Part shown: positions 53,604 through 64,000 of the stretch, piece by piece
Layout: every line of letters begins with the position of its first letter
How positions within the stretch are numbered: the first letter of the stretch is position 1
Source of the DNA: Candidatus Gillettellia adelgis
GTDB taxonomy: Bacteria; Pseudomonadota; Gammaproteobacteria; Enterobacterales; Enterobacteriaceae
Reading direction: 5' to 3'
DNA length: 64,000 nucleotides
Assembly: GCA_020541285.1 (NCBI GenBank)
Contig: CP047043.1
Location: forward strand, 248,001-312,000
Position numbers and translations under genes: made by a program
The notes under the pieces: generated by a model
Seen by the model: the letters and a program-made list of their open reading frames with translations, nothing else
The model's database searches: none
What the model was told of the DNA's origin: nothing

Positions 53604-55715
53604 CTATATTGCAGGAGAAGACTTGATGTCTAATGTAGTGATATCTTTGATACTGAAGCGTGCACGACCCTGCCGGTCAACCTCTAAGACTTTAACGAGA
53701 AGCTCTTGATCTACTTGTAGGTAATCAGTAACTTTATCAACGTGTTTATTAGAAATTTGAGAAATATGTACTAACCCTTCTTTTCCTCTGCCTATAGCGA
53801 CAAACGCACCAAAATCAACAATACGAGTAACTTTACCTTGGTAAATACAGCCAACTTTAATAGCTACCGTAATTTCTTGAATACGACGAATAGCAAATTT
53901 TGCTCTTTCACTATCGATTGCAGCGACTGTTACAGTACCATCATCACTAATTTCAATAGTCGTATTAGTTTCTTCGGTTATCGCACGAATTACTGAGCCG
54001 CCTTTACCGATCACATCTTTAATTTTATCAGGACTAATACAAATAATATGAATGCGTGGTGCAAATTGGGAGATATCGTCACGCGGCTTGCTAATTGCCT
54101 GTTCCATGGCACTTAGGATATGAAGTCGAGCCTCCTTAGCCTGGTTAAGTGCTACCTGCATGATATCATGTGTAATACCTTCAATTTTAATATCCATTTG
54201 AAGCGCGGTAATACCGGATCGGTTACCAGCTACTTTAAAATCCATGTCACCGAGATAATCTTCGTCACCAAGAATATCGGACAGCACTACAAAGTGATTG
54301 TTTTCTTTTACTAAACCCATTGCGATACCTGCAACGGCAGCCTTTATTGGTACGCCAGCATCCATTAGTGCTAGAGAGGCACCACAAATCGAAGCCATAG
54401 AAGAAGAACCATTAGATTCAGTAATTTCAGAAACGACACGCACTGTATATGGAAACTCTTTTAATGTAGGCATGATCGCCATCATACCACGTTTTGCTAG
54501 ACGACCATGACCGACTTCACGGCGCTTAGGTGACCCGATCATACCAGTTTCACCAACGGCATATGGCGGAAAGTTGTAATGAAAAAGAAAGCTGTCAGTT
54601 TTGTCGCCTATTAATTCATCTAGGTTTTGTGCGTCACGCGAAATTCCTAGTGTTACGGTGACCAACGCTTGAGTCTCACCACGAGTGAAAAGTGCTGAGC
54701 CATGAGTGCGAGGTAGTATGCCGACACGAATATCTAAACTGCGGATCATACTTTTCTCACGGCCGTCAATGCGCGATTGTCCACGTAAAACACGATTACG
54801 TACTATATGTTTTTCAATGCTGATAAGAATCGTGTGGATTTCTTCAGATTTTAGTTTTTCATCTTGTGCTATAAGCGTTTCAACGACGCGATCTTTAATT
54901 GCATTGATTTGCGCGTAACGCTCTTGTTTTTTAGTAATGTAATAAGCATCACTCAACTGGGATTCAGCTAGTTCAGTTATACGCGCATGCAGCGCGGTGT
55001 TGATCATAGGTGCCTGCCAGACCCACTTAGATTTTCCAGCTTCAGCAACTAGAGCATTGATGTTTTTTACTACCACTTGCTGTTGCTGGTGACCAAATTC
55101 TACAGCGCCCAGCATTTTCTCTTCATTTAACACATCGGCTTCTGCTTCAACCATCAGAACTGCGGTAGCAGTGCCAGCAACTACTAAGTCCAGACTACTA
55201 GTTTTCAATTCATCAATGGTCGGGTTTAATACATATTGATTATTTATGTAACCTACTCGTGCTGCACCAATCGGTCCATTAAATGGGATATCAGATAGAC
55301 TCAGGGCAGCAGAGGAGCCAATAATTGCAACGATATCTGGATTAATTTGTGGATTCAGAGAGACTACAGTAGCAATCACTTGTACTTCATTAAGAAAGTA
55401 CTTTGGGAATAAAGGACGAATTGGACGGTCAATGAGACGCGATGTGAGGGTTTCACCCTCACTTGGACGGCCTTCACGACGAAAAAAACTCCCAGGTATA
55501 CGGCCAGCGGCATACGTACGCTCTTGATAATGTACCGTTAACGGAAAGAAACTACGACCTATCTGAGCGTTTTTCTGACCTACCACAGTAACTAAAACAG
55601 CAGTATCATCCATGTTCACCATAACTGCTGCGCTAGCTTGGCGTGCTATTATACCGGTTTCTATAGTAATTGTGTGCTGGCCATATTGGAATGTGCGAAT
55701 GATCGGTATCAGCAA
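53604..55715 (-). CDS. pnp: Polynucleotide phosphorylase, UUG start
   Basis: PNPase degrades RNA 3' to 5' by phosphorolysis and is part of the degradosome. The 703-residue product has two RNase PH domains ([18 protein letters not shown] in the first; [20 protein letters not shown] and [14 protein letters not shown] in the second). A KH domain with [14 protein letters not shown] and a C-terminal S1 domain ([26 protein letters not shown]) follow. The start is TTG at 55715-55713, preceded by AAGGA; the residues after it ([14 protein letters not shown]) match E. coli pnp, which also uses UUG. The acidic C-terminal tail of the 711-residue E. coli protein is shortened. rpsO lies 251 bases upstream, as in the E. 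coli rpsO-pnp operon. The RNase III leader hairpin of E. coli could not be confirmed. Confidence 0.97.
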
Positions 55716-55966
55716 AATTATGTCCTTGATTAATGGTGCATCTTCATAGTAACGAATTGATACACCTATGACTCGATTGATCTTTTATTATAACTTTACG
55801 ATTAAGAATAATATTTATTTAAAATTTCGGTAAAAAGTCTTCCATTAGTCGCGAGAACTGCTATAACGAAAAATCTGTTTTAAAATATTAAGCAATAGAT
55901 TAGTTTGATCTGCTTGTTCTTTATAATCTAAGCATGTGCGGTCCTAATGGCATTGAAATTGGAGAA

Positions 55967-56236
55967 CTAGCGACGCAAACCCAAACGCTCAATTAGGATG
56001 GTGTAACATGCTACATCTTTACGCTTTAAGTAATCTAATAGCTTACGACGTTGAGAAACCATACGCAATAGACCACGGCGACTATGGTGATCTTTTTTAT
56101 GCTCAGAAAAGTGATTTTGTAGATGGTTAATTTGCGAGGTTAGCAAAGCAACCTGAACTTCAGTGGATCCGCTATCATTAGCACAACGACTAAAATCAGC
56201 TGTAATGCGCGCTTTAGTTTTAACACTTAGAGACAT
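55967..56236 (-). CDS. rpsO: 30S ribosomal protein S15
   Basis: S15 binds the central domain of 16S rRNA and helps form an intersubunit bridge. The 89-residue product has the E. coli length and keeps [18 protein letters not shown] and the highly conserved [19 protein letters not shown]. One striking change is Cys ([15 protein letters not shown]) for the usual Arg near the C-terminus. A GGAG ribosome binding site precedes the ATG. truB, rbfA, infB and nusA, which lie upstream in E. coli, are not in this window. Confidence 0.96.
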
Positions 56237-57158
56237 AGTAACACTCCAGATTATGATAATAGCTGATAACTACAGATGCCGATCTCTAATTCAACAACTG
56301 AATCCATAAGTTTTACTAGTTTACTCTTATCCTTAATATCCTTCAAGTTTCTTAAGATATATGAGACATTTAATTTTTTGTTAATTAACATATTTGTAGT
56401 GTTCAATACATACAGACAACCTTACTTGATCGCTTATAGATTGTTTACTTTTAGACATTAAATACGAAGTCTTTCATATACTTATTATACATGTGATGAG
56501 TATTTAGTGATATTGCATTACTAAAAAAGTTATTTTAAATTTCCTCGGCTATCTCCTGTTAATTCCTAGTATAATTTTGTGAAAAATATTGTATTTCTTA
56601 TAAGTGTACTTTTAGTGTAGTGGTAGTTTTAGCTTCTTACTTATTATATTCTACAGTCTTTCCATTAAATGTTGAGAGAGGCATAGGATAGAGGTATCAC
56701 ATAAGACTTAATATGTATTATTATTTTTTATCTTTAAAGGGCGTTTGTCACAATGATAACCCGTTTTAAAATTTTATGAACTTTCTAGTTATCCGGTAAT
56801 TTATGTGATGTGATGATGACATGGATGATATTTGTTTTTTGAATTTTATGCGCTGTGCAACTTACTATGTTAGAATTATATCATTTTAATTTAGTACATC
56901 TATGATGTTCAGAACAATGCGATTCTGAGTGAGCTTAACATATACAAATTTATTTAATAAATATGTTGTTATATTCTATTTATAGTCTCGTTATTGAATG
57001 ATAACAGTAAATGAAAAAACGATCTAATGACATAAAACTACTTCGTCTAATTTTCATAGTTCTTTGGGGATATCTGTGTGCTTTATAGTATTGTATATAG
57101 TATATATAGACAGTCCTATATTTAGGACGGTATCTTGTATAACTGTTTCCTTATATCT

Positions 57159-57181
57159 ACGGGGTGTCATCGACACCCTGT
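57159..57181. repeat. G+C-rich hairpin GGGTGTC/GACACCC
   Basis: Bases 57159-57168 pair with 57172-57181 through ten pairs, one of them G-T, around a 3-base loop ATC. The core GGGTGTC/GACACCC is markedly G+C-rich for this DNA. No T-run follows. It could be a relic terminator stem or an operator. Confidence 0.5.
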
Positions 57182-57361
57182 GTATTACTCACTCATTTAA
57201 TAATAACTAGGATCTTAGGTAAGGACTACCCTTAGGTAATTAACACGTTTTTGCCTGTACTTTTTATTTAGATACACAACTCTCTTCCAGGTTGTATCTT
57301 TCTATTACTCAGATACTTCTTTTAATAGGTCAAGGCCAGCTTCTCTCATGGAAAGATAATA

Positions 57362-57379
57362 AGCCTAAATAATTAGGCT
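57362..57379 (+). terminator. Weak intrinsic-terminator-like hairpin
   Basis: AGCCTAA (57362-57368), loop ATAA and TTAGGCT (57373-57379) form a 7-pair stem, followed by GCAG and a T-rich stretch (TTTATTTTTTAT). The T-run is offset by four bases and no gene on the plus strand leads into it. It may be a relic. Confidence 0.3.
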
Positions 57380-58933
57380 GCAGTTTATTTTTTATCAATT
57401 AGAATCATAGATTTTATAGAATTATATTGCTTTAATGATAGTATTGATTAATAAGTAAACAAGACTTCTTTATTTTTAGGAGCATTGAGCTCAAGAATTA
57501 CAGTTCTGCAATTGGATTTCCTTATAAAGGTTTTAGGATTTTACATAACTGCCGATATAAGTATCGGTATTCTACTTAAGCACGAGGTTATTTTAGAGGA
57601 AATTTATTAAATAGTCTAGAAAGACTGTGGTGTCATAATTAGTTAGACTGAAGTCAATTTTGAGATATTATATTTTATGAGAATATTATGACATATTCAC
57701 TCATATTTATCATGATAAACTTCTTATTCACTAAAGCCGCTGATACCGATTATGCTAAATTTTGATAGAAAAACCTGTTCAGCAGTGTCGTAATGAAGAG
57801 TAGCTAAAAGAAAAAGCACTCTCTTTATACATTAAATACTGGCTATATAAGTTTATACAAGCTATACTTCATGTATATATTACTCTATACAGCATAAAAT
57901 CATAGTAGTTAACGCTATGTTAATGCTGTTTGCTATCTGATAGAATGGCGTCATACAATCATTATTGTAATTTGGTATCTAAATTTGATCAGATAATTCG
58001 GTGGAATGCTAAAAAAGCAAGGATGCTGATTAAATAATGCTATAAATAAGTGCACTGTATCAACTTCTATAGCTATTGCTGATTTATTACGACGTCGTCA
58101 TACGAATAAGTTATACCTGATTTATAGTAATATGTTTAAGGTTAATCGATTAATGTATATAAGCTGCATTAAATATTATTCAGCTATATATGATATTAAT
58201 GTTACAACTGTAGTTGTAATTTCCATGGCATATACTTTTATCGCCAGAAACCATAAGTCTATAATGATTTTAAAAGAATCATTAGTTTTAGCACAGATGG
58301 ACTCAATTATATGACGGTAAACACATTGATAGACATGGCTAATTAGGAAAATAATAAAACGAATAATGAATATCCACATACCTCATTAGATTAGGTTACC
58401 CAACTTCACGGGTAACGTAGAAGTTACATAGCATGATTATAGTCGTTAGTATATTGGTCAATAAATTAGTAACATTAATAACTTGCGTGTATTACTGTCA
58501 AACCTTTTAACTATTGTTAAGTATTACAAATAACAGCAAGACCGTCAGAGTTGAGATTGTTTTAATATAGTTAAAACTTACGCTATAATAGGTGTCGCTA
58601 GTAATGTTGATCTAGAGTGTTGATATATTATAAACATCTATAAATCCTGCATACGCTAATTTAGTGAATAGTTGCAAATTTTATTTTCTTGAATAATACT
58701 GTGTATTAAAATAAGTTTATATAACTATTTGTAATATAGTAATTATGATGATCAGTAATACCAATACAAACAAGTATTATGAAGAATGTCATGAAGAGTT
58801 GATTCCTACAGCTAGATCTGTCGAAGTTTTAATCGAATATCTTTTAAGAGATCAATCTTGCTGCTAGTTTATATAAACGAAATATCTTTTATTGAAATTA
58901 GCGTATAATAACAGGAATAAAAAAAGCGAAACG

Positions 58934-59009
58934 TGGTGCTGATAGGCAGAATCAAACTGCCGACCTCACCCTTACCAAGGGTGTGCTCTATCGACTGAGC
59001 TATATCAGC
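58934..59009 (-). tRNA. thrT: tRNA-Thr (anticodon GGU), A19-U56 elbow pair
   Basis: The 76-base gene includes the encoded CCA and folds as a complete cloverleaf with acceptor GCTGATA/TATCAGC and anticodon GGT. Compared with E. coli thrT, D-loop G19 is A (GTCGATA) and T-loop C56 is T (TTTGATT). These two bases form the tertiary elbow pair, so G-C has become A-U in step. It lies 6 bases from glyT, as in E. coli, and ends the cluster. tufB, which follows in E. coli, is missing. Confidence 0.96.
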
Positions 59010-59015
59010 GCAGGT

Positions 59016-59090
<75 letters not shown>

Positions 59091-59450
59091 ATACTAAAAT
59101 TTAGCTATTCAATGTTTTATGGAGTGTAAAGATAGAGTATAGGTTATGTAGCATTATACTTTATTTTAAGTCAGTTTATTTTATAAAACATGATTTAGAT
59201 CATTCTTAATATTTTGATTTCTCCTTATTTTATTGCACTGATTTTCAGTGCAGTTGAGTAAGTTATACTTAATCAATCAAGGTAAGCGTAAATGATAAAA
59301 GATTATCTGTGACTTTATGTTTATTTTTGTTAATAAGGTTGTTATTTATAGTCTAAGGTAACATCTTACGGAAGATTTTGTGTTTAAAAAAAGAATATGC
59401 TAGAGTTAATTCTAGCAGAATTATTCATTTACTTATTAGAAGCATTTTTT
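59091..59450. other. 360-base spacer between glyT and tyrU
   Basis: No gene is visible. The spacer is about three times longer than its E. coli counterpart, though the tRNAs were presumably cotranscribed. A second promoter for glyT-thrT may lie here, but none could be assigned with confidence. Confidence 0.5.
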
Positions 59451-59532
<82 letters not shown>

Positions 59533-59554
59533 CTTTAAATTATCATACTTTCAA

Positions 59555-59630
<76 letters not shown>

Positions 59631-59644
59631 ATTCAATAGCTCAT

Positions 59645-59673
59645 ATTCTATGGAGAGTTGGCAGTATATGCAA
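59645..59673 (-). promoter_or_regulatory. Sigma-70 promoter of the thrU-tyrU-glyT-thrT tRNA cluster
   Basis: On the minus strand TTGCAT (59673-59668) and TAGAAT (59650-59645) are separated by exactly 17 bases. The -10 ends 14 bases before the first base of thrU, leaving a very short 5' leader. Spacing, match to consensus and position make this the most convincing promoter in the window. Confidence 0.7.
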
Positions 59674-60477
59674 GAGAAAAATTTCATTATGTGTATTTTT
59701 GCTTAAAAAATTATTGTTTTATGCAAATGTTTATACTTTATCAGTATTCTTTTATGTAGGATCCGCATTAATTACCTAAAGAAATTAAAAAATTTTTCTA
59801 AATTATCAGCGAGATTGAGATAAGATGATCAGCAGCATGTTTTATAAAGCAAATATTTAAGAGCAGCTAAATTACACTTCCTGTTCCTATTTTTTGAGAT
59901 TTTACGTTTAGATTAGTGATTATGTGAATGACTTCCTGTAAGCAGGGAAAGTCATTTATGACAAATCTGTGAATAAATGGTTTAACATAGAGAATCTCGA
60001 TGAAAAACGATCCATTTACTCACGAAGCATAACAAATATCGCTTTGATACACCATGACGATGGTGATTCACCAATTTTGATCGATCCACCTAAATATTTA
60101 TGAAACAATCTCTTAATTTTGTTTAATATTAAACTTATATTATACAATAAGGCTTAATTGCGCTATAGTGCTCGTGAGAAGAGTAGGTTGTATGCACTAT
60201 CATATCAGCACAATGTGTATGCTTTTTTTAAAATCTATTGTATCTATAGGCGTCTAAAGTAGAGAGCTAATAGCTTATTAGCTGCTGTGTTGGTTTGTGT
60301 TATATATTATGTGAAGATATCTTAATATTTGAGGATATTCAATTGAAATAGGTTTGCCTAGTTTTTGTGAAAAATATTCCAATTTTTTGATCTAAATATT
60401 TTGGTACTTTACGTTTTCTTGATAGTAATATATGAATTAAGGGAAGTACACTATATTCTAATTCAATAGCATATAGA

Positions 60478-60506
60478 GGGAGCTTTTAGGAATATCAAAA
60501 GCTCCC
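60478..60506. repeat. Perfect 10-base inverted repeat GGGAGCTTTT
   Basis: Arms 60478-60487 and 60497-60506 are exact reverse complements with a 9-base loop (AGGAATATC). The stem is half G+C. No T-run follows on either strand and no gene is within 800 bases, so it is not an obvious terminator. Confidence 0.6.
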
Positions 60507-61550
60507 GACTGATCCTGAAGATATTAAGAGTGTATTTTAGAAGATATTAGTTTAAAAGTATGCGCATAAATAATATTAGAAGGTGCATAATTTAATGCTT
60601 TGTTTCTTAAATATTTGCATTGATTGATCAATATCAATACTTTATGACTGTCAGTTGCTTGATATTTTTTCAACTAACTAACGGTTTATAGTGACTATGA
60701 ATATAGGTGGTGGTAAACGCCATGTCTAATTTTATGGAGTTTTCATTCAGTGTTCAAGATCTTGCTATTAAAGTAAGTTGAAAATGTATGTATATGTGGT
60801 TGATTAATCCTACTGTACTGCAGGCAGTCACAGCTATCGTGCAGTTTTAATAAGCGGCCTAATTATATAGACAGATATCGTGCTTTGAATGCGTTGGCTT
60901 CTACAATATGATATAAGATCTACGTCAAAATTATTATTGCTTTTGGTCTTTTATTAAACAACGGTTACTTAATTATATGTAATTAAAAATTTAATTTGTT
61001 TAGAAGTTAGAAAATCATATAATATTGTTTATACGCTTTAAGTAAACGTGTTATTCAATAATAAAGATCTAAATAATTAAGGTTTATAGTTTGAACTATA
61101 ACTTCATAAGTGTACTACTTGTATAACTATTCCAAATAAAAGTCAGTAGTGCGTGCTTGAATGATGAGATCATCTGTAAGAATTTAAAGCAAATATAACA
61201 CATTACTTGAGGTTCCCAGTCTTAGTATGTCGATATTATAAACTGATAATTAAATACTTTAATATAGTTAAGTTTTTATGAAGAAAGCGCAGTTATTATA
61301 TCGATAATTATTAGAAATAATTAATTTGTATCAAAATAAAATAATGCTATATCTTAAATAGTGTAAATTATAAACAACAAAAACTCAGATGCTCATCAGG
61401 AGCAATTGCAGGTAAGTAACTGAGGGAGCAAGAAATAATAACGCCTATGTATCTTGTGGTATGATAGATATATAATATGTAGGGTGTTTATTACCTAGAG
61501 TGATTGCTCTGCGCTTTTCTGATATGAGTTGACCAATTAAAATTTAGCTT

Positions 61551-62501
61551 ATGATAAATCGAGATCAATCTTTATCAACGCTTTATCTTCAGTTATGTCG
61601 TACTCAATGGGCCGCATTACAAGATGCGGTGCCTCTGACGATCTCGGAAGAAGAGATAGGTAACCTAAAAGGAATTAATGCAGATCTGTCGTTAGACGAA
61701 GTAGTGCAGATTTACCTGCCGTTATCAAGATTACTGAGCTTCTACATTCGCTCTACCTTACATCGCCAGGCAGTATTTAAGAAATTCCCCAATAAAGATA
61801 GACAAAATGTACCTTATGTTATTGGTATAAGCGGTGGGGTTTCAGTAGGTAAAAGTACTACTGCGCGTCTATTACAAGTGTTGCTTGGTCGTTGGCCAGA
61901 GCACTGGAACGTAGAGATTATCACTACTGACAGTTTTTTGTTTCCTAATAAAAAATTGAATGCGCATGGGTTAATGAAGAAAAAAGGTTTCCCGCAATCA
62001 TATGATATATACAGTATGGTGCAATGTATTTCAAAAGTAAAATCAGGCATCAAACATGTAACGGCTCCAGTTTATTCGCACCTTATATATGACATAGTTC
62101 CTGATACTAGTAAGGTTATCAAAAAACCAGATATTCTTATTTTAGAAGGTCTGAACGTATTGCAGCGTAAGATGCCTGGAGCTTATGATGCACATCATGT
62201 ATGTATTTCAGACTTTGTAGATTTTTCAATCTATGTCGATGCACCGGAAATATTATTGAAAGATTGGTATATTAATCGTTTCTTAAAATTCCGCCATGGA
62301 GCATGCTCAGATCCTACTTCTTATTTTTATAGCTATGCTAAATTAGCAGAGTGTGAAGCAAGAAATATCGCTACACAATTATGGAATGACATTAATGGTT
62401 TGAATTTGCAGGAGAATATACTTCCGACACGTAAACAAGCAAGTCTGATCATGATGAAGCGTGACAACCACGTGATAGAGAGCATCTTCTTAAGAAGATA
62501 A
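61551..62501 (+). CDS. coaA: Pantothenate kinase type I
   Basis: CoaA phosphorylates pantothenate, the committed step of coenzyme A synthesis. The 316-residue product has the E. coli length and numbering. It shows P-loop [11 protein letters not shown] with Lys101 and Ser102, catalytic Asp127 in TTDSFLFPN, Tyr175/His177 in PVYSHLIYD, and the [10 protein letters not shown] segment. Gly128 and His131 of E. coli (TTDGFLHPN) are Ser and Phe here, close to the active site. The start matches MSIKEQTLMTPYLQ of E. coli; no Shine-Dalgarno is obvious. The gene converges on birA with a 40-base gap, as in E. coli. Confidence 0.95.
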
Positions 62502-62541
62502 TCAGAAAGATATGAAGCGATTGTTGTACTAGTTAATAGGT

Positions 62542-63504
62542 TTATTTTCTATTACGCATAGATATTTCCCCGTTAATAAACGAGCTAATAACACCGTGTT
62601 GATCAAGTAATAAAGCCCCTTGTCGATCGATACCTCTAGCAATACCAAAGATATACTGTGCGCCAATAAGTAATTGAACCGGCCGATTAATAAAATTATC
62701 CAACAAGTGCCAACGTGCTATAAATGAAGATAACCCATTAGTTTCAAGTTGTTTTAGAGATTTTCTAAGCTCATTAAGTAAAGTTGCGGTTAGTTCATTG
62801 CGATCAATGCTAATGCCTGCGTCCTTTAAGTTTGCCCACTTCTGATTAATGGCACTAGCATGATTATTATGCATGGTTAGATTGATGCCTACTCCTATTA
62901 CAATGTGGGTTAAAGCATCAGTTTTTTTAATCATTTCGACTAGTATACCAGCTAATTTTCGATCATTAAGATATAAATCATTGGGCCATTTTACTCGCAC
63001 ATCCTTAGCGCCTAAACGTTGTAAGACTTCAGCTACTACAACACCAATGACTAAACCTAATCCTACAGCCGCAGTAAGTTCTTGTGCGAAATTCCAGTAA
63101 ATTGATAGATACAAATTAGCACCAAACGGTGAGATCCACTTCCGCCCGCGCCGACCCCGTCCAGTCTGTTGATACTCAGCAACACAAGCATCACCAGACT
63201 GAAGTTTATACATATAATCTAGCAAATATTGATTAGTTGAATTCACTACCGATAATATAGTCACACGTTTGTCTTCTAACAGATTAAGGATACGATCAGC
63301 TTTTAATAATTGAAGTGAAGATGTAAGCTTATATCCTTTACCTAATATGGCAGATATATTTACGCCCCACTTACGGAGGGTCTGAATATGCTTATAAATT
63401 ATTTCTGGACGTATAGATAACGATGCACTAAGTTTTTTTTCTGAATAAGTACCACCATCAGCTAATAACGTAATCAGTTTTAACGGAATCTTATTATCTT
63501 TTAT
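62542..63504 (-). CDS. birA: Biotin-protein ligase BirA, apparent AUA start
   Basis: BirA biotinylates the acetyl-CoA carboxylase carrier protein and, through its N-terminal winged helix, represses the biotin operon. The frame from 63504 encodes 320 residues, against 321 in E. coli. The N-terminal domain is recognisable ([32 protein letters not shown]). The catalytic domain has [14 protein letters not shown] and [20 protein letters not shown]. The codon at the E. coli start position is ATA (63504-63502), not ATG, and overlaps the murB stop. The first standard start in frame is GTG at 63264, which would delete the whole DNA-binding domain. The 81 intervening codons have no stop and stay family-like, so use of AUA, or very recent loss, is likely. 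Confidence 0.88.
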
Positions 63505-64000
63505 GATAGCACCTCTACCGAATTTAATTCACCCCTTGCAGCAATAAAACGCACCTCAGGTTCAAGCCATATGTTGAATTTATCTGCAACGGTATTGCGC
63601 ACGTAACGTGCTAGGATGACGATATCCTGGCTAGTAGCATTATGTACGTTGACTAATACTAACGGCTGATAAGGATATACAGCAGCTCCGCCTACCCGAT
63701 ATCCTTTTAACTGGCATTGATCGATGAGCCAACTTGCAGATAACTTAATACATCCATTTGTTTGTAGATAATTCGGGATATTTGGATATTGAGAGATCAG
63801 TTCTTTAGATTGTTCGAGACTTACTAATGGATTTTTAAAAAAGCTACCAGCATTCCCTATTTTGTGGTGATTTGGTAACTTACTGCGACGCATAGCACAG
63901 ACAGCATTGAATATCTGAGTTGGTGTAACGGTTGCTGGATTTAACTGCGTTAAAGATCCGTATTTAAGCGTAGGTCGCCATTTTTTTCTTAAATGTAAGC
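63501..64000 (-). CDS. murB: UDP-N-acetylenolpyruvoylglucosamine reductase, C-terminal part (runs off the right edge)
   Basis: MurB reduces UDP-GlcNAc-enolpyruvate to UDP-MurNAc in peptidoglycan synthesis, using FAD and NADPH. The visible 165 codons are open to the window edge. They match the E. coli C-terminal half: [30 protein letters not shown] with the catalytic Ser segment, [20 protein letters not shown] and the end [19 protein letters not shown]. The stop TAA (63503-63501) overlaps the birA start by four bases, as TGA does in E. coli, so birA translation is probably coupled. Retention implies that the cell still makes peptidoglycan, at least at this step. Confidence 0.95.

Follow-up and report, generated by a model that had tools for sequence, protein, structure and literature searches.

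The tRNA-Thr(GGU) gene thrT at positions 58934-59009 (minus strand) of the window, by which we mean the whole 64,000-nucleotide stretch analyzed (bases 248001-312000 of one contig of 1,413,209 bases that is marked 100% complete), very probably encodes a working tRNA in which a near-equivalent A-U pair has taken the place of the tertiary elbow pair G19-C56, by way of a transient intermediate and under A+T-biased mutation and drift. The gene is intact and 76 nt long with an encoded CCA (ARAGORN), scores 68.4 bits against RF00005 in a whole-genome search, and its RNA folds as a cloverleaf (-31.1 kcal/mol, z -3.6). It reads, in order, GCTGATA, TA, GCTC, AGTCGATA, GAGC, A, CACCC, TTGGTAA, GGGTG, AGGTC, GGCAG, TTTGATT, CTGCC, TATCAGC, and ACCA. 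On the D-loop side of the elbow pair, A19 (58991, minus strand) stands where the usual enterobacterial thrT has G19, and on the T-loop side, U56 (58954, minus strand) stands where the latter has C56 (comparison with L032-L060); the letters, the coordinates, and the contrast with the E. coli-type gene given in the original prediction are therefore right. All four stems are fully paired, the anticodon loop is intact, and the anticodon GGU (positions 34-36; 58974-58976, minus strand) reads ACU and ACC. The usual bases G15, C48, G18, U55, G57, and A58 are kept, and the canonical elbow features G18-U55, U54-A58, and purine 57 are present in the sequence; the canonical G19-C56 tertiary pair is absent, with A19 and U56 in its place. 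The gene forms a complete class I cloverleaf with a Thr anticodon; it is a normal tRNA in which one tertiary pair covaries, a case of ordinary compensatory change and no new kind of tRNA.

Scanned against Rfam at the gathering threshold, positions 55000-64000 gave no entry for thrT, and the A19-U56 tRNA of locus L072 was likewise missed in such a scan. We read the omission of thrT as the work of fast filters rather than as the sign of a defective tRNA; A19-U56 tRNAs may be under-reported by fast search filters.

Contacts with RNase P and the ribosome keep pair 19-56 almost free of variation. The pair closes the junction between D-loop and T-loop, and the ribosome, among other partners, touches its outer face (PMC4810234; PMC5309774). 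For the source lineage, we infer that drift fixed G19A and C56T, both of them transitions, in succession: the first to arise would have left a weak but tolerated elbow (a G19-U56 wobble or an A19-C56 mismatch), the second would have brought Watson-Crick pairing back, and a small asexual population together with A+T-biased mutation would have eased both steps. The A-U pair would still join the D- and T-loops and would still offer a flat pair face to RNase P, the ribosomal A-site finger, L5, and the L1 stalk; it should serve these partners because their contact is largely by stacking. Charging and decoding would be near normal, since the anticodon and pairs of the acceptor stem are what set threonine identity (PMC9976931). 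An intermediate with one change is not bound to be lethal: a mouse tRNA-Arg with C56A as its sole change keeps most of its fold, and RNase P acts on it only about twofold more slowly (PMC8915964).

Coupling of positions 19 and 56 was surveyed in a single class of tRNA patterns (D-stem GCTC/GAGC, variable region of normal length) across 392 genomes of the family, which holds many reduced symbionts as well as free-living enterobacteria. Three genes of this class carry A19-U56, one carries A19-C56, and four carry G19-U56, while G19-C56 is present in every one of the 392 genomes, with a total of about 6,000 genes by extrapolation from the first 36 rows (which sum to 582, or about 16 per genome). 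The two positions change together more than independence predicts (Fisher test, p ~3e-9 with 6,300 G19-C56 genes assumed and phylogeny ignored). The intermediates that the original prediction proposed to look for in related symbionts exist in both kinds: A19-C56 in thrT of G282, and G19-U56 in the tRNA-Thr genes of G062, G346, and G079 and in a tRNA-Arg of G131, none of them from the lineage of the source genome. That natural double changes occur in one family together with each of the two kinds of intermediate shows that it is mainly the Watson-Crick pair that is conserved, and not the letters G and C. The importance of this single gene is small; such genes are ready-made sets for measuring the cost of each intermediate.

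The three A19-U56 genes of the pattern class lie in three genera and are all thrT(GGU), namely those of the source genome (G000), G115, and G349. Reading thrT in sister species added two more, in G405 (A19-U56) and G201 (U56). The D-loop of G201, AGTTAGAGA, was read as having an additional base ahead of G18-A19, and that of G282, with AGTTAGATA, as A19 accompanied by C56; both readings depend on where the extra D-loop base is placed. In a PNPase tree, G115 groups with G227 and G301, both G19-C56; G405, G201, G349, and G282 are united in a supported clade, to which G068 (G19-C56) is the outgroup; and the source genome lies far from both of the other A19-U56 groups, beside G029 with weak support (82/39), its nearest PNPase identities being 77-78%. 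Because the sister lineages on this tree are G19-C56, A19-U56 in thrT had at least three separate origins in reduced symbionts. The thrT(GGU) genes of G115, G349, G405, and G201 (the last with its one-base D-loop shift) thus share with the source genome the isoacceptor, the double change, and the four-gene cluster, but differ in their independent origin, and within the clade of G405, G201, and G349 the A19-C56 gene of G282 departs from the double state. G282 may have retained an old A19-C56 or may have lost U56 later; both cost a similar number of steps.

Outside the family, the pattern class with A19-U56 was sought in bacteria at one genome per species, which gave at least 123 matches in at least 120 stretches, a sample rather than a census. 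ARAGORN called all 123 listed matches as tRNAs when given whole loci, and 121 of them show near-perfect cloverleaf pairing, the other two being clipped by locus ends. A supposed blind spot of ARAGORN for A19, with 59 genes left uncalled on cropped stretches, was an artefact of the cropping. By their record titles, the listed matches come from Bacteroidota, Alphaproteobacteria, Saccharibacteria, Helicobacter, Fructobacillus, and others. Among them tRNA-Gly(UCC) accounts for half, followed by Ala and Arg tRNAs, and 7 of the 123 are tRNA-Thr or tRNA-Met with other anticodons. When all four combinations were searched in five unrelated genomes (each picked because it has an A19-U56 gene), every A19 was found with U56 and every G19 with C56. 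Across 109 Bacteroidales genomes, the tRNA-Gly(UCC) pattern comprises 41 genes in 32 genomes, which by our own count of the listing divide into 21 A19-U56 (carriers include G416, G417, G461, and G526), 20 G19-C56, and no mixed genes. This count tests the 19-56 coupling independently, and it shows that the A19-U56 state can last across a large clade. Like thrT of the source genome, the Bacteroidales genes encode intact tRNAs with the coupled A19-U56 elbow; they differ in isoacceptor and phylum, and the state is there long stable and spread over many species, whereas that of the source genome is known in one genome. A search for an A19-U56 elbow by that name found no report in the literature covered. 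The original prediction was right that a nearly invariant pair has been replaced, but the rarity it implied was overstated: A19-U56 is a recurrent natural alternative in several phyla.

That every family A19-U56 gene of the pattern class is thrT(GGU), from three origins, and that other tRNA-Thr genes account for three of the four G19-U56 cases, would fit selection for A19-U56 in symbiont thrT, either through an altered partner (RNase P RNA, the L1 stalk, or a modifying enzyme) or as a means of tuning tRNA amount or speed. We consider such adaptive remodelling improbable: the enrichment was spotted post hoc and amounts to three to five events, other phyla favour Gly, Ala, and Arg tRNAs for the swap, and drift suffices without a new partner. 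The source genome itself also speaks against a general shift in a partner, since only one tRNA of its set has changed. It has 37 tRNA-model matches; 35 distinct tRNAs were read from loci and two more from further stretches, with positions 19 and 56 scored by eye, and all tRNAs read except thrT keep G19 and C56. In the symbionts with listed G19-C56 matches, thrT makes up about one gene in seven to eight, so that three of three being thrT by chance has a probability of about 0.002, a figure that is post hoc and concerns few events in one pattern class. The recurrence of thrT is thus modestly intriguing and serves as a lead only. It is unlikely, if somewhat less so than adaptive remodelling, that the thrT(GGU) elbow is a hot spot in reduced symbionts, at which replacement of G19-C56 is tolerated or selected far more than in the other tRNAs of the same genomes; if it were, something about tRNA-Thr or its partners would be expected to loosen the constraint on 19-56.

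The other reading to be weighed against compensation is decay, in which thrT would be turning into a pseudogene and two unrelated degenerative changes would pair by chance. The reduced, A+T-rich genome lends itself to this, as does the distribution of the changes: relative to the usual enterobacterial thrT (e.g., L034 and L038), the gene differs at positions 17, 19, 26, 56, and 59, and four of these five differences fall in the D- and T-loops. The nearest thrT found (G012, L032) differs at 17, 19, 56, and 59. By our own arithmetic, four random substitutions on 76 positions would strike both partners of the 19-56 pair in about 0.2% of cases, before Watson-Crick pairing is required to be kept. 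The changes to C17 and U59 may be older than the elbow change in the lineage of the source genome, because the G19-C56-bearing thrT of G029 has both of them too. Relative to the enterobacterial gene of the thrU-tyrU-glyT-thrT cluster, the window gene retains identity, anticodon, and cluster order (93% identity to the usual family sequence), but has A19-U56, C17, A26, and U59, and is no longer followed by tufB.

The loss of this former downstream partner could also be taken as a sign of decay. In L039, from a relative of free-living genome size, the EF-Tu gene tufB comes next after thrT; it is absent from that place in the window, and the one EF-Tu gene of the genome lies elsewhere (1143811-1144989). 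The remainder of the cluster has the usual order, tRNA-Thr(UGU), Tyr, Gly, Thr(GGU), which is present in other symbionts too: tRNA-Gly(UCC) (59016-59090), tRNA-Tyr(GUA) (59451-59532), and tRNA-Thr(UGU) (59555-59630), all on the minus strand, called by ARAGORN (the last also identified by sequence comparison), and with normal G19-C56. The cluster adjoins coaA, birA, and murB; coaA and murB were matched from related loci, and birA and murB are what we take the ORFs beside the cluster to be from our own reading of them. Between the S15 leader/rpsO and thrT (56410-58930, about 2.5 kb), the window contains no ORF longer than 67 aa, and a tufB of the L039 type is missing. A consensus scan found no clear terminator directly after thrT.

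Against decay, the stems, anticodon loop, CCA, and other conserved tertiary bases of thrT are all intact, and the same paired changes recur in intact tRNAs elsewhere. The gene is also the only tRNA-Thr with a GGU anticodon: used as a query, this tRNA matched the 1.41-Mb genome at full length only once, so the second, G19-C56-bearing tRNA-Thr(GGU) that the original prediction had allowed for does not occur, and the only two tRNA-Thr genes read in the genome are GGU and UGU. Demand for the GGU anticodon is heavy, because ACU and ACC make up 268 of the 441 Thr codons (61%) in window ORFs of at least 250 aa, and the genome would accordingly need thrT(GGU); tRNA-Thr(UGU) could in principle read part of the ACU and ACC codons. 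We therefore regard decay as very improbable. Compensatory change in a functional tRNA, which the original prediction had preferred to decay, is supported by the intact cloverleaf, the single GGU-anticodon tRNA-Thr, and the strong covariation of 19 and 56 in relatives and in unrelated bacteria. That A19, U56, or both are mistakes of sequencing or assembly is extremely improbable, since there would have to be two errors falling precisely on paired positions, and independent genomes show the double state as well.

Three further departures from the usual bases were seen in tRNA genes of related genomes. G341 has two copies of elongator tRNA-Met in one cluster, of which one (L200:762-838) is A19-C56 and the other normal; the mismatch is apparently tolerated beside the good copy. 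U33 is nearly universal in tRNAs; the thrT of G068 (L191:10643-10718) has C at this position, beside the anticodon. In G079, the tRNA-Gly(UCC) gene (L187:1743-1817 and L203:1025-1099, the same gene) has the T-loop GTCCGAT, in which U55, the usual pseudouridine site, is apparently C.
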